A program made the position numbers and the translations under genes. From a virus, in IMG/VR virus record IMGVR_UViG_3300008107_000507, positions 1 to 31,278 of that record: a stretch of DNA of 31,278 nucleotides; one strand, given 5' to 3'. Positions 4,357-29,046 of the stretch are shown here, piece by piece. The stretch's first letter is position 1; each line of letters starts with the position of its first letter. The notes beneath the pieces were generated by a model. It was not told where the DNA came from, did no database searches, and was given only the letters and a program-made list of their open reading frames with translations.

Positions 4357-5078
4357 TTTAGTATTTGTTCTATTTTTTGCATGTGTTGTTCAACTCCGCC
4401 CCACGACCAATGCTGTGTTGCGCATGTTTCTTTTTCTCCTGATTTTAGCCATGTGAATTTGTCGTTGTGGAATCTGTTTGCCCATTGGCCAAGTGTATTG
4501 AATTCGCTGAACTGCCTGTATGGTTGAGCACATATCCATGTTTCCAGATCGTGCTTTTGAACTTGTTGAACGAATTTTCTAAACTCAGGATAAATCCAAC
4601 GAGGATAAATTATTGGAAGTCTCCGCATGTATTCTTTTTCATCAAACCAACCAAGAGTTAGTTTTGCAATTTCTGGCCAAGGAGTCGGTCTTATTGTCGA
4701 ATAAATTGGGCAGACCGCCATCACATTTTCGTCGTATAGAACTATAGGTTTTTCGTGCTCGAAAAAATCTTCAGGATGTGTTTCTTTAAAAAATATACAA
4801 TCGCTGTCGACGTGCAAGATATAATCCGCATTGCAGAAATTATCTGCATACATCTTTGTCACTTGTTGAGCTAAATACCCTTCGCACTTATCACAAACTC
4901 CATGGGCAATTTCTCCGTCTAAAAAATCCAATGCAGAAACGTCTTCATTTGGCACTGCAACATGGACATCATTAAATCCTTTGCAGAATTTCTTTATGCT
5001 TCTTAAACAATATTTTAACCACTCAAAGTCATTTTTGTATGAACGGATAAAGATGTCAACTTTTACAGAGGATGTCAT
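4353..5078 (-). CDS. Glycosyltransferase (GT-A fold, DSD motif)
   Basis: A 241-residue protein with an N-terminal strand (VDIFIRSYKNDFEWLKYCLR) typical of GT2/DUF6492-like enzymes. ADYILHVDSDCIFF at about residues 84-97 contains the DxD metal-binding motif (D91, D93). The C-terminal half is rich in Trp and aromatic residues (W-Q-H-W-S-W-G), as in acceptor-binding regions. It overlaps the FkbM gene by 23 bases and the next glycosyltransferase by four, so the block is one transcript. It likely transfers a sugar from a nucleotide-sugar donor. The substrate is unknown. Confidence 0.7.
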   Translation of the reverse strand: MTSSVKVDIFIRSYKNDFEWLKYCLRSIKKFCKGFNDVHVAVPNEDVSALDFLDGEIAHGVCDKCEGYLAQQVTKMYADNFCNADYILHVDSDCIFFKETHPEDFFEHEKPIVLYDENVMAVCPIYSTIRPTPWPEIAKLTLGWFDEKEYMRRLPIIYPRWIYPEFRKFVQQVQKHDLETWICAQPYRQFSEFNTLGQWANRFHNDKFTWLKSGEKETCATQHWSWGGVEQHMQKIEQILK

Positions 5079-5700
5079 ATTGCTCGCCTTTTTCTGGAAA
5101 CGGTGTTATTTTATAGCCTAGTTTTTCTAAAAAACTTTCGACTTCGTATGGACTTGTACCGTTAGCTTCAAGCGCGCCTCGGTTTATTTCAATCCACATA
5201 GTTGGTTTAAACTCTTGGACTGTTTTTAGCGCGCCGCGTAAAGCATTCAACTCAAATCCTTCGACATCGATTTTTATAAACTTGACGTTTTGGATTTTCA
5301 GTGAATCTAACAATACGGTTTGAATTTTTGTTTTTCCCGATAACTTTATTCTACTAGCGCCGGCATTTGGGTTAGTTTCGTAGGATAACGTTTCTTCTTT
5401 GTCAGATATACCGGCGTTAAATACGAGCGCGCCAGGACAATTGTGGCATAAACAATCAAATGCCTCTTTGTTAGGTTCGAATGCGTAAACATGGCCAGTT
5501 TTTCCAACTCTATTCAAATACGCAATCGTGTGGTCGCCAATAAAAGCGCCTGCATCAATAACGGTATCGCCAGGTTTTATATGCTCAAGAATTATCGGCA
5601 ATGCGTACTGATCATGGTCAAGTCGTCCAGATTCCTCAACCCATTTTGAGATGTGCGTGTCGCCGTCTATGACGGCAACATTACCGTGAATAATTTTCAC
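5056..5700 (-). CDS. FkbM-family SAM-dependent methyltransferase
   Basis: A 214-residue protein with the full set of class I methyltransferase signatures in order: VIDAGAFIGDHT (47-58, SAM-binding loop), VYAFEPN (71-77, acidic ribose-binding Glu75) and FIKIDVEGFELNALRG (141-156), the hallmark of the FkbM family. FkbM enzymes commonly O-methylate sugars or polyketides. Start is GTG at 5698-5700, overlapping the upstream stop as GTGA. Lying between glycosyltransferases, it most likely methylates a sugar that they attach, capping a glycan. The target of the glycan is not evident. Confidence 0.85.
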   Translation of the reverse strand: MKIIHGNVAVIDGDTHISKWVEESGRLDHDQYALPIILEHIKPGDTVIDAGAFIGDHTIAYLNRVGKTGHVYAFEPNKEAFDCLCHNCPGALVFNAGISDKEETLSYETNPNAGASRIKLSGKTKIQTVLLDSLKIQNVKFIKIDVEGFELNALRGALKTVQEFKPTMWIEINRGALEANGTSPYEVESFLEKLGYKITPFPEKGEQYDILCKS

Positions 5701-6470
5701 AGTATCTTACTCAAGTTTGACGTGTGAACGCCGTATGTTCCGTAACCTACGTGGATAGCCTGTAGTTTTGTATCAACGTACGGTTGGAAACCGCACTCGC
5801 GAGCTCTGCGGCAAAACGCAATATCCTCTCCTGCGCCGTCAGTATCGGGTTGAAAAAAGTTCCACGGCAATTCGTCATTTCCAGGTGCTAAATCAGGAAA
5901 CTGAATCATCATCGTCTCAAAAACTTCGCGCTTTATAAGCATGCACCCAGTTCCTAACCAGTTGCATGGCATGACAGAATCCGTGAAAGAATTTACGCGC
6001 TCTCGGTATTCGGAATCATTATGCAAACTATTTATAGCACGGCCATCCTTGTGGCGGCCAAAATATGTAGCACCGACAATTGGCTTATCGTGCCCTATCA
6101 ATCTATGGATTGTATCAAGTGCTAGTGCTGAATCAGGATAATCGTTTGGCAATCTGCACATCTGGCGCATGAATTGTGGACGGCCAATTGGCAATATCAT
6201 ATCATCGTCAATAAACAAAAGCCATTTTGCTTCTGTCTTGAGGAACTTTGCGGCAAGATTATTACGCGCATGATAAATCATCGCATCGCCAATTTCCATG
6301 TCGAAACGAATTTTATCTTTGCCGATATCAAGAGCCATTGCCAATAAACACCAAGCCGTTACCGGATTAGTTTGCTTATAGCAAGGAAACCCGACAAATA
6401 AGTCGCGGCCAAGCCATTCAGCGGAGCAACTTTCTACAAGTTGTTCTTTCTTTTTTCTAGGTTGTCTCAT
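5697..6470 (-). CDS. Glycosyltransferase family 2-like protein (DDD motif)
   Basis: A 257-residue protein. LFVGFPCYKQ (residues 24-33) resembles the first strand of GT2 proteins. AMIYHARNNLAAKFL (63-77) and WLLFIDDDMIL (83-93) carry the donor and metal-binding DDD motif. NWLGTGCMLIKREVFE and GAGEDIAFCRRARECG are typical of later GT2 elements, where the Glu-Asp pair is the catalytic base region. The first ~20 residues are basic (RQPRKKKEQ). The start has the best Shine-Dalgarno in the window (AAGGAG, 4 bases upstream) and overlaps the scaffold stop by one base (TAATG). It is first of the glycan block. Confidence 0.8.
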   Translation of the reverse strand: MRQPRKKKEQLVESCSAEWLGRDLFVGFPCYKQTNPVTAWCLLAMALDIGKDKIRFDMEIGDAMIYHARNNLAAKFLKTEAKWLLFIDDDMILPIGRPQFMRQMCRLPNDYPDSALALDTIHRLIGHDKPIVGATYFGRHKDGRAINSLHNDSEYRERVNSFTDSVMPCNWLGTGCMLIKREVFETMMIQFPDLAPGNDELPWNFFQPDTDGAGEDIAFCRRARECGFQPYVDTKLQAIHVGYGTYGVHTSNLSKIL

Positions 6471-16706: not shown

Positions 16707-18053
16707 ATGCGAATCGAATTACGCCAGTATCAAAAGAACGCAGCCTCAGATTTAGCTGAAATCTTATCCGAAAAGAAGTTTGCGTTAGACGGTTCAGATA
16801 CCGGCATTGGAAAGACGTTTACTGCTATAGGCACTTGCTTGCGCTTTAACAATCCGGTGGCCGTTATATGCAAAGCCAGAACCTTGACCAAATGGAAAGA
16901 AGCTCTAGCACAATTTGGAATTGAACCTATATTCTTGTTGAGCTGGGAAAAGGCACGTAATGGCAAGAATGGATTCTTTCTTCCGCTCAATTCAAAAGGC
17001 CGTGTTTCTGGCTTCAATTTGCAGCTTAAAGAACCAACGGTCGTTATCATTGACGAGATTCATTGTGGCGGTGCGCTCAAGAGTTTAAACGCAGAACTTG
17101 TCATTGCATGCAAGCGATGCCCAAATGCGTACACTCTTGGGCTTAGCGCTACCGTCGCCGACTCGCCTCTTAAAATGCGGGCGATTGGATTTTGTTGCAA
17201 TCTGCACTCATTAGGTAACGACTTCTGGAATTGGTGTCGGAAGAATGGTTGCGGCAAGTCTCCATTCGGCGGTTTGTATTTCCGACAAAAAGATCGTGAA
17301 CGCGTACTCAAGACACTTCATCAATATCTATTCGGTAAAGATGCCAAATGGGGAATCCGTTTACGTAAGAAAGAACTCATGGAGGAAGGCAGTTTTCCTG
17401 AGTCCGAAGTTTATGTGGAATTGTGGGATCCGCCGAACTCTTTGCCAGCTTGGGCACAAGCTTCTATAGCTGAGATTGATCAACGTGAACAAGCCGACAT
17501 GGAAAAATACGACGGCAATCCGCATGGTGGAATTCTGCACATGCGTAGTCGTCAGCGGACAGAAATCCAAAAATTACCGTCTCTCATTGATGAAATCGAA
17601 GACCGGTTGGCCGAAGGAGAGTCTGTTATTGTGTTCGTCCAATTCACCAGAACCATCCAGGTCTTGGCGAAACAATTGGAGCATATTCCTCATGCCATTA
17701 TTTCTGGTGTTACGGCTAATAACCGCGTTGGTAGAGACGGCATTGAATACTTCCAGCGCAATCAAATCAAACTTATCATTTGCCAAGTAGACGCTGCCGC
17801 CGAAGGTATCGACTTACATGACGTTCATGGAGATTGCCCGCGACATGTTATCGTATTCCCAACTTACAAAGCGATTACGCTGATCCAGGTTTTAGGCCGA
17901 GCAGTGCGCGCTAATGCCAAAAGTCCCGTGGTTCAACGCATTGTCTATTCTTCAGAAGGCATTGAGGAAAAGATCGCCCGTACCGTGGAAAAGAAACTTG
18001 AGAACTTGTCAATGTTATCCGACGGCGAACTCAATGCTGGAGGTATGTTGTGA
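16707..18053 (+). CDS. SF2 DEAD/DEAH-type helicase
   Basis: 448 residues with the helicase motifs in order: Q-type region RQYQKNAASDL (6-16), Walker A DTGIGKT (31-37), motif II VVIIDEIHC (112-120), motif III LGLSATVAD (144-152), and in domain 2 VIVFVQF, IISGVTANN and motif VI LIQVLGRAVRANAKS near residues 393-407. This is an SNF2/DEAD-like two-domain ATPase, likely remodelling replication or recombination intermediates. The next gene starts with a GTGA overlap. Length is that of a minimal helicase with no extra domain. Confidence 0.9.
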   Translation: MRIELRQYQKNAASDLAEILSEKKFALDGSDTGIGKTFTAIGTCLRFNNPVAVICKARTLTKWKEALAQFGIEPIFLLSWEKARNGKNGFFLPLNSKGRVSGFNLQLKEPTVVIIDEIHCGGALKSLNAELVIACKRCPNAYTLGLSATVADSPLKMRAIGFCCNLHSLGNDFWNWCRKNGCGKSPFGGLYFRQKDRERVLKTLHQYLFGKDAKWGIRLRKKELMEEGSFPESEVYVELWDPPNSLPAWAQASIAEIDQREQADMEKYDGNPHGGILHMRSRQRTEIQKLPSLIDEIEDRLAEGESVIVFVQFTRTIQVLAKQLEHIPHAIISGVTANNRVGRDGIEYFQRNQIKLIICQVDAAAEGIDLHDVHGDCPRHVIVFPTYKAITLIQVLGRAVRANAKSPVVQRIVYSSEGIEEKIARTVEKKLENLSMLSDGELNAGGML

Positions 18054-18919
18054 AGACCGCTTTCGCTGGAATCCTAAACAACCCGGCAAATAGTCTTAAC
18101 AGTCATTCTGCGGGTTGGAACCGATTAGTCCGTTCTCTCGTTGATCCTAAAGCCGTATTTGTCGGTGAAGACTGCGACTGGTCTGCATTTGACCGTATCA
18201 TCATCAATCATGGACCGAACTTTAAACCCGGCTCGTTTAACATTATTGGCGGTATCGGTGACGCGGTACTCATGCGTTTAGAAAAGTTAGCTGCGGCTTT
18301 TGATACGGCAGAAGTTTATCAAATGGATGGATTCAATCTTGGCGACTTCTTGCAAAAGCGTTTACCTGGGCGATACGACTTTGAAGGCGAGATTCCATTT
18401 ATGCCTTTGCCACAGCGCGACAAATTGGTACTGGGTGATAGTCATTCTATCTCGGTTTGGCCAGGACCTGAATATACGATTGAGCGGCGAGATGGCCAAA
18501 CGTTATGGGGATTCATGAGAGATCCCAAACCCGCGGACTTCCTATATCTGGGCAATATCGATATACGCTTCCATCTTTGCCGCCAAGAGGATCCGTTAAA
18601 ATCCATGCATTCTCTTCTTGACCGATACTTACAATTTGCAGCGGACTGTAAGGCAAAAGTTAGTTGTTTACTCCCGGTAGAATCCGAAACTCGTAAAATT
18701 CCCGGCACCGGTCTTTACAAAGGTCAACCTTTCTATGGGTCACAAGCCGACCGCGCGCTTCTCGTTAATGAATTCAACTCTAGACTCATTGAGTCTGGAT
18801 TAGACGTCTATTGCTGGCCAAAAACCTGGTATGAAAACGTCGAGCAATACGAGAATGAAGTCATGGAACCCCGTCAATCTGTACATATACGCCCAAAACA
18901 CTATGCAAGTCAAATCTGA
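18050..18919 (+). CDS. SGNH/GDSL-hydrolase-like protein
   Basis: 289 residues, GTG start. Residues 1-115 contain DRIIINHGPNFKPGSFNIIG, which I have the impression of having seen in phage proteins but cannot name. A second part has KLVLGDSHSISVW (about 125-137) resembling SGNH block I with the nucleophile Ser, FLYLGNIDIRFHL resembling block III (G-x-N-D type), and near the end EPRQSVHIRPKHYA resembling block V with its catalytic His. If these are right it is an esterase, lipase or acyltransferase of the SGNH fold. The next gene starts 16 bases before its end. Its partnership with the helical and PLP-type proteins suggests an acyl or other group transfer step, which is inference. Confidence 0.55.
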   Translation: MKTAFAGILNNPANSLNSHSAGWNRLVRSLVDPKAVFVGEDCDWSAFDRIIINHGPNFKPGSFNIIGGIGDAVLMRLEKLAAAFDTAEVYQMDGFNLGDFLQKRLPGRYDFEGEIPFMPLPQRDKLVLGDSHSISVWPGPEYTIERRDGQTLWGFMRDPKPADFLYLGNIDIRFHLCRQEDPLKSMHSLLDRYLQFAADCKAKVSCLLPVESETRKIPGTGLYKGQPFYGSQADRALLVNEFNSRLIESGLDVYCWPKTWYENVEQYENEVMEPRQSVHIRPKHYASQI

Positions 18920-19868
18920 AATTCTTGAAGCCTTAGACGACTATCACTATAAAAGTCTACGAATGCAGCGTTATTTCCTCGACAAACAAACCCGAGGTCT
19001 TTCGCTTGAAGAAATCGAGTTAGAAATCAATGATGACTTAATCTTCCGCGTGCCGATTTACGACATGTTAGACCGACGCTATGCGGCTTTCTGTTCTTTC
19101 CTGGAAGCTCTTGACAAACGAGAAGACGACCCAAAAGGACATGGCCTTCGATTCAAGGACCACCAGGTCGCGCGTAGAATCGACAAACTCATGCTTTATT
19201 ATCTTTTCCGTTTATGCGGTTCTGGGATCAATTACGTGCCAACAACGCATGGATTCGGGAACTTCTGGATCGTTAAAAGTATCCTGGACGGAAGATACCG
19301 CTATGAAGAATGGCTTCAAGACTTGCCGGACGCCAAGTTCAGTGACAACAAAGGCTATCTTCTTCCGCAATTCTCAATCGGTCTTAAGACATTCATTCTT
19401 GAACACGCTTACGGCCTTGTGAAGTTTATCGAATCCGAAATTGTGGATTCACTCCAAGACATCAAAGAGATTGTGGACAAAGGCAATATCTATCTGAAAG
19501 AAAACGGCTTCAAGCGCCAAACGTTTGTGCTCTCTGCTTTTGCCGCGGATATTGCCGAGTATTATCCTGATTATGTGAACCCCCATAGCATGATTTACGC
19601 CGGTACAAACGCTCAGAAGTGCATCAAGGCTATATTCGGCCGTTGTAATCCGGATGAAGCGATTTCGTTCTTAACCGAACGGTACAATTCCGTACCTTAT
19701 TCCATTGAAGACTCAAGACTCTGCGATCCAGTACGGTACTTTCTGGAATATCAGTCAAAAGACCATATCCGCGCTAATGGCGGAAAAACTTACAAGAACA
19801 ATTCAACCCTCAAAAAATTGTGGACCGAACAAGAATACCAAAATTTTCAGCAACAACTTCAGAAGTAA
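18903..19868 (+). CDS. All-helical protein resembling the alpha-glutamyl/putrescinyl-thymine pyrophosphorylase families (DNA hypermodification)
   Basis: 321 residues from the ATG at 18903; an upstream ATG at 18831 would overlap too deeply. The protein is almost entirely helical. A conserved-looking core reads YLFRLCGSGINYV (100-112), HGFGNFWIV (116-124), DIAEYYPDY and a C-terminal SRLCDPVRYFLEYQSKDH. The R-x-x-GSG-x-x-x and HGFGN pair recalls enzymes of the so-called aGPT-PPlase group, linked by comparative genomics and biochemistry of other phages to amino-acid or polyamine adducts on 5-hydroxymethyluracil in DNA. That resemblance is from memory. The gene pair with a PLP-type enzyme is the main contextual support. 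An unrelated HhH-type DNA-binding protein is the main alternative. Confidence 0.4.
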   Translation: MQVKSEILEALDDYHYKSLRMQRYFLDKQTRGLSLEEIELEINDDLIFRVPIYDMLDRRYAAFCSFLEALDKREDDPKGHGLRFKDHQVARRIDKLMLYYLFRLCGSGINYVPTTHGFGNFWIVKSILDGRYRYEEWLQDLPDAKFSDNKGYLLPQFSIGLKTFILEHAYGLVKFIESEIVDSLQDIKEIVDKGNIYLKENGFKRQTFVLSAFAADIAEYYPDYVNPHSMIYAGTNAQKCIKAIFGRCNPDEAISFLTERYNSVPYSIEDSRLCDPVRYFLEYQSKDHIRANGGKTYKNNSTLKKLWTEQEYQNFQQQLQK

Positions 19869-20629
19869 ATCAGGACGCTATCTATACTCGAGACCAGTAT
19901 CTCGAAATGATAGGCGACTTCAAGAGTTCTTTTCCTACTCCGGTTATCGAGACGCATGAAGGTCGGTACGTTGTGCGTGAAGATTTACTCGAAGTAGGCA
20001 CGAAATCCCGAGCTGGAGAATTCCTTATCGCGACTTGCCCTTATGATACGATCGTTTACGTTCAACCTCGTTGCGGTTTTGCCGGAATTTCGTTGACCAA
20101 ACTCTGTAAAATGTACGGCAAAAAACTGGTCTTGTTTATGCCTTCGTCAAAAGAAGTCTCGAATCATCAAGCTTGGTGCATTGAACACGGCTGCGAATAT
20201 CATTTCCATAGGATTGCGGCTATGCCCAATTTGAATTTGATTGCGGCTAAATGGGCTGAAGAAAACGGAGCATTTTTCGTTCCTCTTGGTTTGCACCATA
20301 AATTGGTCACGGCCATGCTTGTCAAAGTCGCCTATGAACTATGCGAACCGGATTGCTTTTGGACGGCATTTTCAACGGGTGTTCTTAACCGCGCTCTTCA
20401 AATTGCTTGGCCCGAGGCTGAAGCAAATGGCGTAGCGGTGGCCCGCAATATCCATGAAGGGGAAAAAGGTCGTGCCAGGATCGTGGGCCATTATAGATCC
20501 TTTACTCAAGATAGTCTAATATTGCCGCCATTTCCTTCTGCACCAAATTATGACGCCAAAGTCTGGGAATTCACAGAACCTGGAGATTTATTTTGGAACG
20601 TAGCCGGAGAAGTCAAAAGCATTGCTTAA
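19820..20629 (+). CDS. PLP-dependent-enzyme-like protein (ACC deaminase/cysteine-desulfhydrase fold type)
   Basis: Up to 269 residues. VVREDLLEVGTKSRAGEFLI (51-70) matches the signature around the Schiff-base lysine of fold-type II PLP enzymes (K-R-D-D-L..G-G-x-K-x-R-K-x-E), with K62 as candidate. QPRCGFAGISLTKLCKMYGK and VLFMPSSKE fit the following Rossmann-like half, and PPFPSAPNYDAKVWEFT followed by LFWNVAGE reads like the conserved end of a phage-borne family. Smaller than ACC deaminase (about 330), so the second domain is reduced. The start is either GTG at 19820 (overlapping by 49 bases) or ATG at 19907, giving 240 residues. In thymine-hypermodifying phages PLP enzymes act on amino-acid adducts of DNA bases; the same role here is inference. 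Confidence 0.6.
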   Translation: MDRTRIPKFSATTSEVNQDAIYTRDQYLEMIGDFKSSFPTPVIETHEGRYVVREDLLEVGTKSRAGEFLIATCPYDTIVYVQPRCGFAGISLTKLCKMYGKKLVLFMPSSKEVSNHQAWCIEHGCEYHFHRIAAMPNLNLIAAKWAEENGAFFVPLGLHHKLVTAMLVKVAYELCEPDCFWTAFSTGVLNRALQIAWPEAEANGVAVARNIHEGEKGRARIVGHYRSFTQDSLILPPFPSAPNYDAKVWEFTEPGDLFWNVAGEVKSIA

Positions 20630-21231
20630 ACGCGTCAATTCCTCAGCATCTTTATGGCTATGTAAACCGTCTTTTTTTGACGGGGTATGACCCAGAAGAA
20701 GAACTTAATTACGAACCGTGCGTCATTTTTGGCGTGACGTCGATTCCTTCGCGCGCGTTGCATTTTTCAATTTTATGCGAAAGCGGGGCGCAGTGGGCAA
20801 GAGTCCCATTGCACATGTTACGCTGGGAAATTCCGGCAATAGACAAAGCGCCAGAGCATTCACTCTCCGAGTTGCAAATGTGGGATTCTCATGGCTGGGA
20901 TTTTAGCGTTTGTCGTTACGAGTATTTGCGCGAACTCGGTTGCCAATACCGCAAACGCGACGGCGCATTATTGCCCGCGTCGTATTGGTTCACCCTCGAT
21001 CACACGGACAACGGATATAGTCAATATCCACCTGAACATAAGTGCTACCATTTGCTTTTGATTGAAGATGGATCTGGACAAATTGCGGCGCAACCGAATA
21101 ACCGTATCGTATGGCGCGATGATAGTTTTGTCAAGCCAGGACATAGTCTGAACTACAAAGTCGTAACGCGTGAAACTTATCACGCTGAGATTGGACGCAA
21201 TCCCCAAGATACCGCTTTTACAACTGAGTAA
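20593..21231 (+). CDS. Conserved phage protein, unknown function
   Basis: About 212 residues from a TTG start at 20593 that overlaps the PLP-type gene by 37 bases. The start is uncertain because the only in-frame alternative nearby is another TTG. The sequence has a strong signature, LYGYVNRLFLTGYDPEEELN, then EPCVIFGVTSIPSRALHF, DSHGWDFSVCRYEYLREL, FTLDHTDNGYS and QPNNRIVWRDDSFV. It looks like a widely distributed phage protein of beta-rich fold, but I cannot name a function. It completes the run of four overlapping genes after the helicase. Confidence 0.6.
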   Translation: MERSRRSQKHCLNASIPQHLYGYVNRLFLTGYDPEEELNYEPCVIFGVTSIPSRALHFSILCESGAQWARVPLHMLRWEIPAIDKAPEHSLSELQMWDSHGWDFSVCRYEYLRELGCQYRKRDGALLPASYWFTLDHTDNGYSQYPPEHKCYHLLLIEDGSGQIAAQPNNRIVWRDDSFVKPGHSLNYKVVTRETYHAEIGRNPQDTAFTTE

Positions 21232-21286: not shown

Positions 21287-21718
21287 ATGAGTACAACAAG
21301 CCCAAAACCCAATCTCGTCATTAGACGTGATGCTAAGAAAGAAATCGTCGAAGCTTTGCAAGCAGTTTGCGATTCCCTTAAAGGATCCAATTCGCTGCTT
21401 CTTCGTCAATGTCAGTCAGCCTTGAAGAAAGCTCTTGCGCTATCATTTGCGGTATCGCTAAGCGCATGCTCTTCGATGGTCAAAGAGACCTACACTGAGA
21501 CACGCGAATTCAACTACCCGAAAGGTGTCACCCCGCACCTCAAGGATATGTATATGCACAAGTCGCCGCCACCGCAAGCTTCCAATAACGACGTAGTCGA
21601 CTTTGCTCAACCAGTCGCGGAATTACAAGATGAACTACCGCGTAGTCTTGAAGAGATCAAAGCCGAAAACCGCCTTCTAGCGGCAATGCACGTTAACAAA
21701 ATGCTACGCGAACAATGA
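21287..21718 (+). CDS. Lipoprotein-like protein with possible internal start
   Basis: 143 residues from the ATG at 21287. Residues 46-61 (KKALALSFAVSLSACS region) form a perfect lipoprotein signal peptide: Lys-Lys, a hydrophobic core, and a lipobox L-S-A-C at C61. In the long form 45 residues precede it, which is unusual. An in-frame TTG at 21422 would start exactly at the signal peptide (M-K-K-A-L-A-L-S). The mature part (SSMVKETYTETREF onward) is hydrophilic, with Pro-rich KSPPPQAS and a helical C-terminus. An outer-membrane or periplasmic role, such as a superinfection-exclusion or spanin-like factor, is possible. The following gene overlaps by ATGA. Confidence 0.6.
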   Translation: MSTTSPKPNLVIRRDAKKEIVEALQAVCDSLKGSNSLLLRQCQSALKKALALSFAVSLSACSSMVKETYTETREFNYPKGVTPHLKDMYMHKSPPPQASNNDVVDFAQPVAELQDELPRSLEEIKAENRLLAAMHVNKMLREQ

Positions 21719-22179
21719 AACGTTTATCGATCGAAGACTATGCAATGGCTATTGCTTTTGCTGCGTCCATGCGCAGCGAAGATCCATCCAGGAAAGTTGG
21801 CGCAGTGGCGCTAGACTGGGAAAACCGGGTCATAGCCACAAGTTATAACGGGCTACCGAAAGGGTTCCAAGAATCGGATTCTTTCTGGGAAGACCACGAC
21901 AAACGTCGTAAGTTTGTGGTACATGCCGAGACTAATCTTTGTTCATTGACGGTGCGCGGTCAAGTTCTCACAGTAGCAGTGACAACGATGCCTTGCGCAG
22001 CTTGCGCTATAAACCTTGTAGCGCATGGAGTCAAAAAAGTTATCTACGGCGAAGACTATCCGCGCGATCCCGTAGGACGAGAAATCCTTGAGCATTACTG
22101 CGTAGAATTAATTCACGTTCCACGCAATGCATTAACCCGCATTAATTTTCCAATTCAAACAAGTCAACAATCATTATGA
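21715..22179 (+). CDS. dCMP deaminase
   Basis: 154 residues of the zinc-dependent cytidine/dCMP deaminase family. The Zn site is VVHAETN (68-74, H70 with catalytic E72) and TMPCAAC (91-97, C94 and C97). SRKVGAVALD and TSYNGLPKGF are the usual substrate-binding phrases of dCMP deaminases. It would convert dCMP to dUMP, feeding dTMP synthesis. Present together with the hydroxymethylase-like gene, as in T4, where both coexist. ATGA overlaps on both sides. Confidence 0.9.
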   Translation: MKRLSIEDYAMAIAFAASMRSEDPSRKVGAVALDWENRVIATSYNGLPKGFQESDSFWEDHDKRRKFVVHAETNLCSLTVRGQVLTVAVTTMPCAACAINLVAHGVKKVIYGEDYPRDPVGREILEHYCVELIHVPRNALTRINFPIQTSQQSL

Positions 22180-27073: not shown

Positions 27074-27573
27074 ACAAACCAACACCAAAATCCCTGCCAC
27101 AACCACTACCACACTTCACGGTTTCCGTGATTCCTTTGGATCCAGAAAACTTGACTACGGCGTTACTCTACCGAGGCGAAGGAGTGCGCTCTGCTAAAAA
27201 TTGTCTGGCCATTCCATCCGGACTTTTAGAACACGGCGAATCTTTTAAAGAGTCTATCGTGCGAGAACTAGAAGAAGAACTCGGCATACCCGCGGATGCT
27301 TGCGGATTCCTTAAATTTCACTCACTTTACCGGAATATTTTACCAGACGGTTTTGATTGGGTAATCGGAATTTGGAGTATAGAAGTTTCTAACTTGGCGG
27401 ATCTCGCGAAAAACTGTGAACCCGACAAACACGATTACGTGAAAGTCGTGAAACTTTATGAACTTTGGGATTGGCTTAATAATGAAAAGTCTCTTGAATT
27501 TGCGCCTAATTTAGCAGAAAACTTAAAACCCGTTGTCCGCGAAATTCTAATAAATGCTCCAATCGGAAAATGA
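27070..27573 (+). CDS. NUDIX hydrolase
   Basis: 167 residues. The NUDIX box is perfect at 51-73: G-x5-E-x7-R-E-L-x-E-E-x-G-I (G51, E57, R65, E66, E69, E70, G72). The preceding strand FTVSVIPLD and AIPSGLLEHG fit the fold. It overlaps both neighbours by ATGA. NUDIX enzymes hydrolyse nucleoside diphosphate derivatives. Next to a kinase and a hydroxymethylase, it may remove an unmodified dNTP or sanitise the pool, but substrate cannot be read from sequence. Confidence 0.92.
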   Translation: MNKPTPKSLPQPLPHFTVSVIPLDPENLTTALLYRGEGVRSAKNCLAIPSGLLEHGESFKESIVRELEEELGIPADACGFLKFHSLYRNILPDGFDWVIGIWSIEVSNLADLAKNCEPDKHDYVKVVKLYELWDWLNNEKSLEFAPNLAENLKPVVREILINAPIGK

Positions 27574-28262
27574 ACCCAATCATCATCATTGAAGGTCCGG
27601 ATGGTTGCGGTAAAACAACATGGTGCAAACACTATCAAGCCATGTTCGGCGGAAAGTATATGCATCTCGGATTGCATAAAAATTTATACGCATATCAGAC
27701 TATGAGTTTAGTTCGCGCGGTGTACTGGGCAAAAAAAGTCCCGGTGCTTATCGATAGGCATTGGCCTTCTGAACAAATCTACGGGTCTGTTTACCGCGGG
27801 GCATGTTTGCGCAAAGAAGCCGCTCGGCTAGAAAAGTTTTGCGAGGATCTCGGTATTTTTTATGTTGTGGCCATTGGTGATGATGCCGAGTCTATGGCAA
27901 ATTGGCATCAAGAAACTTCGGCTCAGCGTCCCGAAATGTACTCGCCTGACTCGAACTACCGAAAAGTACTAAATGGCTATCTTGATTGGTGGTCAGGTAA
28001 AAGTACTTGCGCCGTGAATATCGGCCATTGTGCTGAAACTAAGCCTATGTGCTCTAAATTTTTTTCGGCCATCCAGTATAACCGCGAAGGATTTAAAGGT
28101 CAAACCGGTATTAACAACCATATTCATATTACTCAGGTTTTAGCTACAAACTGGCGTAATTTTCGACTTTCGTTAAAAGACAGCAACACCCTCACTAAAA
28201 ACCAACTCATCAAAGAATGCGGATATGAAGCCCCAAAAAACAGCAACCAATGCATGGCTTGA
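27570..28262 (+). CDS. P-loop deoxynucleoside monophosphate kinase (thymidylate-kinase-like)
   Basis: 230 residues. IIIIEGPDGCGKTTWC (4-19) is a Walker A of the TMPK/dNK type, and VPVLIDRHWPSEQIYG (57-72) is the equivalent of the D-R-Y/H motif of thymidylate kinases. The C-terminal third (from about residue 150) shows no family motif. It could phosphorylate dTMP or a modified dNMP such as hydroxymethyl-dCMP. The next gene starts 38 bases before its end. In T4-like phages a monophosphate kinase plays the equivalent role for hmdCMP. Confidence 0.8.
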   Translation: MNPIIIIEGPDGCGKTTWCKHYQAMFGGKYMHLGLHKNLYAYQTMSLVRAVYWAKKVPVLIDRHWPSEQIYGSVYRGACLRKEAARLEKFCEDLGIFYVVAIGDDAESMANWHQETSAQRPEMYSPDSNYRKVLNGYLDWWSGKSTCAVNIGHCAETKPMCSKFFSAIQYNREGFKGQTGINNHIHITQVLATNWRNFRLSLKDSNTLTKNQLIKECGYEAPKNSNQCMA

Positions 28263-29046
28263 CCTAATAGCAAAAATTACTGCTTCAGGTCAAATTCACA
28301 AACCTAGAAACCTCCCTATTCGGGAAATCGTCGGAAATCAAGTCAAATTTGACATGAAGTATCCGATCGTCTTAACTAAAGCTAGAAATCTTAACTACAA
28401 GTTTATGGCCGCCGAAGCTTGGTGGATGCTTAGCGGCCGAAACGATACCGCGTCTATCGGAGAATACTGTAAAGCAATTCTAAAGTTCTCAGATGATGGC
28501 AAAACTTTTTTTGGTGCTTACGGTCCCAAAATTTCGTCTCAGATTGACTATGTGGTTAGCAAATTGAAGCAAGATCACGAAAGTCGACAAGCCGTCATAA
28601 ACATCTGGAGAGAAAATCCACCTGAAACTAAAGATACGCCTTGCACAATTTCTGCGCAGTGGTTGATTAGAAATGGCGAGTTACACTGCATCGACACTAT
28701 GCGTTCAAATGACGCGTGGCTAGGTTTTCCTTACGACGTATTCAACTTCTCGATGTTATCTTGGCATATTGTTAATGAACTCCAAAAAGACGGGTTTAAT
28801 GATCTTAAACTTGGCACTTTCACGCTGAATGCCGGATCGCATCATCTTTACGAGCCGGATTGCGAAAAGATCCGCGTCCTATCGCCGATAGAGTGGTCTG
28901 ACAGCATAGACTTCAATATTTGCGCCGGCGGCGAATCCTGGCCAATCCTGGATCAACTGGCGTGGGTTTTAGGTAAAACTGAAAATCCAGAAGGCTCAAA
29001 AAGCGCATTTTTCACGGAGTTCAAATCGAAACTTGTCTCCAAATGA
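28225..29046 (+). CDS. Thymidylate-synthase-family enzyme, likely dCMP hydroxymethylase
   Basis: 273 residues. The fold is that of thymidylate synthase: FMAAEAWWMLSGRNDT (60-75, with E64), SRQAVI (120-125), TPCTISAQWLIR (138-149, nucleophile C140), TMRSNDAWLGFPYDVFNF (158-175) and LNAGSHHLYE (201-210). The residue matching the E. coli Asn177 that selects uracil is Asp (D171). T4 gp42 dCMP hydroxymethylase has Asp at this place and shares the surrounding C-T, Q-x-L-I-R, M-R-S-N-D, G-F and N-x-G-S-x-H-x-Y pattern. This argues for dCMP, and for hydroxymethylation rather than methylation, but enzyme assay is needed. ATGA overlap with the primase. Confidence 0.75.
   Translation: MKPQKTATNAWLDLIAKITASGQIHKPRNLPIREIVGNQVKFDMKYPIVLTKARNLNYKFMAAEAWWMLSGRNDTASIGEYCKAILKFSDDGKTFFGAYGPKISSQIDYVVSKLKQDHESRQAVINIWRENPPETKDTPCTISAQWLIRNGELHCIDTMRSNDAWLGFPYDVFNFSMLSWHIVNELQKDGFNDLKLGTFTLNAGSHHLYEPDCEKIRVLSPIEWSDSIDFNICAGGESWPILDQLAWVLGKTENPEGSKSAFFTEFKSKLVSK

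Follow-up and report, generated by a model that had tools for sequence, protein, structure and literature searches.

Which base of viral DNA is acted on, and with what chemistry, by a cluster of overlapping genes in virus record IMGVR_UViG_3300008107_000507? This IMG/VR record (31,278 bases; the whole stretch is called the window here) carries three adjacent genes at 18050–20629, termed the trio, which encode an SGNH-fold protein, an all-helical protein with an HGFGN motif (the HGFGN protein), and a pyridoxal phosphate (PLP) enzyme. The best reading, with a probability of about 0.7, is that the trio belongs to a cassette for cytosine hypermodification, the product and the order of steps being offered as a proposal. 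The trio probably decorates viral cytosines with an amino-acid-derived group, hiding the DNA from host defences. Amino-acid-type hypermodification is so far known on thymine only, and 5-hydroxymethylcytosine (5hmC) is known in glycosylated or carbamoylated form. A widespread cassette that seemingly joins amino-acid chemistry and 5hmC would extend DNA chemistry and give new 5hmC-labelling enzymes.

Gene Linkage and Distribution of the Trio

An earlier, sequence-only reading of the window had treated four overlapping genes as one block for DNA base hypermodification. All four open reading frames (ORFs) are present and overlap head to tail (Table 1); the start of the HGFGN protein is placed by its homologues at the ATG at 18903, within ORF 18831–19868, and the trio genes are far above chance as real genes. 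The fourth ORF (20593–21231) was rejected as a member of the unit because it adjoins the trio only in the closest relatives of the window (three loci). The block is thus reduced to three genes, and its proposed role in hypermodification is borne out by the transferase-like fold of the helical protein, the homology of the PLP enzyme to that of the M6/SN1 cassette, and a hydroxymethylase gene that follows the trio, as described below.

Relatives of the HGFGN protein are encoded in at least 165 viral stretches of IMG/VR contigs, and the locus counts given here refer to the best 80 of these, with identity down to 46%. The suggested neighbourhood search recovers the trio, with the SGNH gene in 75 and the PLP gene in 78 of the 80 loci. 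Genes for DUF6378 (66 loci), a thymidylate synthase (TS)-like protein (63), deoxycytidylate (dCMP) deaminase (44), dUTPase (36), and MazG (35) are also present. The SGNH, HGFGN, and PLP genes are nearly always adjacent, and the usual order is DUF6378–SGNH–HGFGN–PLP–(MazG or dUTPase)–(dCMP deaminase)–hydroxymethylase. This order is kept amid very different flanking genes, including those of GroES/GroEL-bearing contigs, and the TS-like hydroxymethylase lies downstream of the trio in 42 of the 44 loci whose downstream sequence exceeds 5 kb. The distances of the four proteins correlate across 36 non-redundant loci (Mantel r 0.64–0.84, p ≤ 0.001), which indicates co-inheritance.

A 227-amino-acid gene located between the HGFGN and PLP genes in 16 loci was rejected as a pathway member, having a lipoprotein-like start and no family match. 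Searches by tblastn found no HGFGN protein in named phages (a distant member used as the query gave a chance-level match only), none was confirmed in bacteria or archaea in a collection with one genome per species, and the HGFGN profile had no match in the genomes of hypermodification phages.

A Cytosine-Type Hydroxymethylase

The TS-like proteins were aligned to Escherichia coli ThyA, and positions 147 and 177 were read. These positions are the top markers of cytosine-modified phages, in which Asn177 is changed to Asp (MetaGPA, PMC8670742). At position 177, Asp is present in all 63 hydroxymethylases that could be read there (the window enzyme and 62 trio-linked homologues), as well as in gp42 of Aeromonas phage 44RR. 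The corresponding residue is Asn in SN1, a close relative of the thymidine-modifying phage M6, and in ViI, for which the residue was read by eye from an ungapped motif because the automatic alignment had a gap there. Position 147 is Thr (as in the window) or Asn, and never His, in trio-linked hydroxymethylases, although by itself it does not discriminate, as SN1 likewise has Asn. The best PDB match of the window enzyme is the CMP 5-hydroxymethylase MilA (E 1.2e-20), and that of its relatives is the T4 dCMP hydroxymethylase (E 4.5e-33). With a TS fold, Asp177, and no His147, the window enzyme is assigned by its residues to the dCMP/CMP 5-hydroxymethylase type. The base is read as cytosine because every readable trio-linked hydroxymethylase has the cytosine-type Asp177, and the modified base is probably not thymine. 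The sequence-only reading had rightly seen a base hydroxymethylase-like enzyme in the window; modification of thymine, as in the studied phages to which it pointed, is not supported in view of Asp177.

The window enzyme forms a separate subfamily with about 30% identity to the other trio-linked hydroxymethylases, so that cytosine-type hydroxymethylases of more than one subfamily accompany the trio. The hydroxymethylases of AXL3, PW916, and ctUtU524 are 44–49% identical to it and all have Asp177, that of the cultured phage AXL3 being among its closest cultured relatives. DNA of AXL3 resists 35 of 37 tested enzymes (all with G/C in the site) and is cut by two A/T-only enzymes (PMC7504290). AXL3 gene 28 (L161:4980–5789), which is annotated as thymidylate synthase and carries this Asp177, is more likely, from its sequence, to encode a dCMP hydroxymethylase, and this would explain the restriction resistance at G/C sites.

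The HGFGN Protein

The AlphaFold model of the HGFGN protein is all-helical with a predicted local distance difference test (pLDDT) score of 87.6, and the motifs HGFGNFW and EDSRxCD are invariant across 40 aligned sequences. In Foldseek, the model matches a viral protein named amino acid:DNA transferase domain-containing (E 2.7e-11; template-modelling scores 0.75/0.64) and a second viral amino acid:DNA transferase protein (E 3.4e-4). Weaker structural matches are the helical protein of the 5-hydroxymethyldeoxyuridine (5-hmdU) kinase of phiW-14 (E 0.05) and aGPT-Pplase1 (E 0.08); solved structures give weak matches to helix-hairpin-helix DNA glycosylases only. Pfam profiles give another picture: none of the 40 members matches PF18724 (amino acid:DNA transferase, ADDT), none matches PF18723 (HMUDK helical) above the cut-off, and PF18746 (aGPT-Pplase3) is absent from their Pfam matches. 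Kinship with the aGPT-PPlase/HMUDK group, which had been suggested from the motifs, is therefore retained at the level of structure and finds no match to these three families in sequence. Because the fold matches while the sequence profiles show no link, the modelled protein is regarded as a structural relative of the ADDT family and not as a member. It is proposed to act as a 5hmC-directed amino acid:DNA transferase or as a base-presenting domain.

The PLP Enzyme

The PLP enzyme matches Pfam PALP at E 2.9e-5, which does not reach the Pfam cut-off, and the PHROG threonine dehydratase family at E 1.4e-32. The assignment of GTKSRAGEF as the Schiff-base lysine motif of a fold-type II PLP enzyme is upheld by the invariance of Lys62 of GTKSRAGE in 37 homologues and by homology to PALP and SN1 proteins. 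In particular, hhalign aligns the enzyme with the family of SN1_023, the PALP enzyme of the SN1/M6 cassette (97.1%, E 7e-11), and the C-terminal motif PFP..YD.K.W...FWN is common to the trio and SN1 enzymes. The PALP-like protein of ViI has a similar C-terminal stretch, but this comparison is not significant. On the profile alignment, the trio enzyme and its counterpart from the M6/SN1 thymidine cassette are homologous, and the former is proposed to process an amino-acid adduct. Other PLP homologues are found in Microcystis and Erythrobacter phages (L082:7408–9726, L083, L084), either within or adjoining genes that carry DNA methylase or ParB/sulfiredoxin annotations; this context differs from that of the trio and is possibly another setting of PLP-linked DNA modification.

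The SGNH Protein and Its Relatives in Aeromonas Phages

The identification of the upstream gene product as SGNH-like is sustained by both sequence and model. Gly129, Asp130, Ser131, and His132 (GDSH), Asn169, and His279 are invariant in 49 homologues; the Asp of the usual SGNH DxxH motif is replaced by Gln, and an invariant Glu273 lies close by. The AlphaFold model (pLDDT 94.6) matches several GDSL/SGNH esterase structures over part of the chain (probability 0.96–1.00, E about 1e-3). With these catalytic residues and a predicted flavodoxin-like fold, the protein is placed in the SGNH hydrolase superfamily, and its proposed target is the 5-hydroxymethyl group of DNA cytosine, which would undergo acyl transfer or activation.

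The closest relatives of the SGNH protein among named phages are found in T4-like Aeromonas phages and a few others. The homologues of the 44RR/25 group (ORF233c and relatives) are 28–31% identical over more than 90% of the length, and one is carried by each of the three Aeromonas phages 44RR, 31, and 25. ORF233c of 44RR (L160:8001–10388; 795 amino acids) is a fusion of the SGNH domain to a helical-type (HMUDK_hel-like) domain. The homologue stands alone in Aeromonas phage 25 and Stenotrophomonas phage IME13, where genes for UDP-galactopyranose mutase and a 358-amino-acid unknown protein lie directly upstream (L177:776–2957, L179:270–2452); the adjoining mutase gene suggests a sugar-based modification in these two phages. 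A gp42-type hydroxymethylase is present in 44RR, 25, and IME13, and no PLP-family (PF00291) match was found in 44RR. Gene 42 is present and the T4 glucosyltransferases are absent in Aeromonas phages 44RR, 31, and 25, and it was reported to be uncertain if the DNA of such 5hmC phages is modified in some other way (Petrov and colleagues, PMC2993671). The SGNH–helical fusion encoded by ORF233c is a candidate 5hmC modifier of these phages, and the SGNH homologues make the question of modification in 44RR, 31, and 25 testable.

Alternative Readings of the Cassette

If thymidine were hypermodified as in M6 and ViI, the hydroxymethylase would make 5-hmdUMP and the trio would act on 5-hydroxymethyluracil in DNA. 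This pathway fits the PLP enzyme and the helical fold, both of which have relatives in thymidine cassettes, as well as the accompanying dCMP deaminase and dUTPase, but it is unlikely in view of Asp177 in all readable trio-linked hydroxymethylases, compared with Asn in SN1 and ViI (the latter read by hand). The characteristic parts of that pathway are also missing: PF18748 (HMUDK-type DNA kinase), PF18723, and PF18724 match nothing in the window or in a set of 23 related virus records, two of which are 162 and 136 kb long, with SN1 and an M6-like record as positive controls. Radical SAM proteins were likewise undetected in the window and in 22 of the related records, but detected in SN1. The P-loop kinase at 27570–28262 is probably a hydroxymethyl-dCMP kinase, and its sequence places it outside the 5-hmdU DNA kinase family. 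A different possibility is that 5hmC is only acylated or esterified in another way. The SGNH protein would then be the main modifier, aided by the helical protein in binding DNA, and the PLP enzyme would supply a donor amino acid without itself acting on DNA. Phage 44RR, which combines SGNH and a gp42-type hydroxymethylase with no detectable PF00291 gene and has SGNH fused to a helical-type domain, is consistent with such a simpler scheme; its improbability for the trio follows from the presence of the PLP gene in 78 of 80 loci and from the closeness of this enzyme to that of a cassette with a pathway in which DNA-bound amino acids are remodelled. It is highly improbable that the genes form an auxiliary metabolic or glycan-modifying cluster which lies beside nucleotide genes by chance. 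Glycan deacetylation is common among SGNH enzymes, and the activities of the trio proteins are predictions, but the hydroxymethylase is linked in 42 of 44 loci despite very different flanking genes, and the HGFGN model matches amino acid:DNA transferases.

Several observations speak against cytosine hypermodification by an amino-acid route. The dCMP deaminase and dUTPase of the cassette would fit a dUMP pathway as well, and the lack of a detected DNA kinase is not proof of its absence, as most of the related records are fragments in which a divergent kinase could be missed. In hhalign, the HGFGN family scores against PF18723 and PF18724 no better than reversed or unrelated decoys, but the comparison carries no information, as these two known families also miss each other. 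The helical-type domain of the 44RR fusion matches PF18723 weakly (E 9e-4) and in its C-terminal part only, and a search for nucleoside chemistry of trio carriers found none. To our knowledge, action on DNA has no biochemical precedent among SGNH enzymes.

Proposed Pathway and Comparison With Known Systems

The proposed pathway builds on gene linkage, folds and families, and a cytosine-type hydroxymethylase, which are direct observations. As suggested by its family and active-site residues, the TS-like enzyme would convert dCMP to 5-hydroxymethyl-dCMP, which the P-loop kinase and other enzymes would raise to the triphosphate for incorporation by the polymerase. In finished DNA, the HGFGN protein, judging from its fold, would bind and present the 5hmC base; its structural relatives are thought to present 5-hydroxymethyluracil in DNA. 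The SGNH protein would then act on the 5-CH2-OH group, most likely yielding an acyl ester or an activated intermediate that replaces the phosphorylation of the thymidine pathway. It is proposed in the place of the kinase because members of the known DNA kinase family were not detected and because an SGNH–helical fusion exists. Lastly, the HGFGN protein would install an amino acid and the PLP enzyme, as its M6/SN1 homology suggests, may remodel it, for example by decarboxylation. The full combination, with 5hmC as the handle, an SGNH acyltransferase replacing the kinase, an unrecognised branch of the ADDT superfamily adding the amino acid, and PLP-dependent remodelling, is tentative, with the odds somewhat against it; if true, it would be a new hypermodification route that gives amino-acid-derived cytosines in viral DNA.

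The thymidine cassette of phages M6 (Pseudomonas) and SN1 (Sphaerotilus) consists of a 5-hmdU DNA kinase, ADDT, a PLP enzyme, a radical SAM protein, and a pyrimidine hydroxymethylase. It resembles the trio cassette in its TS-like hydroxymethylase, helical transferase fold, homologous fold-type II PLP enzyme, compact gene cluster, and a dCMP deaminase in the genome, whereas the trio cassette has a cytosine-type hydroxymethylase (Asp177) and an extra SGNH protein, and the HMUDK kinase, HMUDK_hel, ADDT (by Pfam), and radical SAM are undetected with the trio. The T4 5hmC pathway shares the Asp177 dCMP hydroxymethylase, and trio loci have dUTPase/MazG-type nucleotide enzymes like it, but SGNH, helical, and PLP proteins stand where T4 has a glucosyltransferase. 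In the Aeromonas phages, the same SGNH family occurs in genomes with a gp42-type hydroxymethylase, but it is either fused to a helical-type domain (44RR, which has no PLP-family match) or located beside UDP-galactopyranose mutase (25, IME13). The 5hmC carbamoyltransferase cassettes of environmental phages likewise have an Asp177 hydroxymethylase with dCMP deaminase neighbours, but the conserved gene set of the trio lacks a carbamoyltransferase and the modifying enzymes differ (MetaGPA, PMC8670742).

Other Features of the Window

Table 1. Positions of the trio, associated nucleotide-metabolism genes, and the adjoining ORF in the window.
Feature	Position	Strand	Basis
SGNH-fold protein, 289 amino acids	18050–18919	+	Invariant catalytic residues; AlphaFold model matches; fusion homologue in 44RR
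HGFGN all-helical protein, 321 amino acids	18903–19868	+	AlphaFold model and Foldseek; without Pfam sequence match
Fold-type II PLP enzyme, 269 amino acids in the window	19820–20629	+	PALP match; Lys62; hhalign with SN1_023 family
Unknown protein, phrog_3704 family; not counted in the module	20593–21231	+	Neighbour of the trio solely in closest relatives
dCMP deaminase	21715–22179	+	Pfam dCMP_cyt_deam_1, E 1.6e-13
P-loop nucleotide kinase	27570–28262	+	phrog_761 thymidylate kinase, E 1.2e-9
Pyrimidine 5-hydroxymethylase, predicted cytosine type, TS-like	28225–29046	+	Asp177 and Thr147 (E. coli numbering); MilA match

The products of minus-strand genes at 431–1750 and 5056–6470 include a DUF285-repeat protein and an FkbM-type methyltransferase, and a further product matches the Anp1 glycosyltransferase very weakly; the other minus-strand genes around these positions are without family matches. 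Contig L001 is otherwise 99.98–100% identical to the window, which is 60 bp shorter near 20620. Without these 60 bp, the PLP gene of the window lacks its 3′ end and ORF 20593 its start; the difference is either a variant or an assembly fault. Homologues of the phrog_3704 protein encoded by this ORF occur in 107 phage records, mostly of cyanophages, and are annotated inconsistently as ferredoxin, PurM, or phosphoribosylaminoimidazole synthetase.

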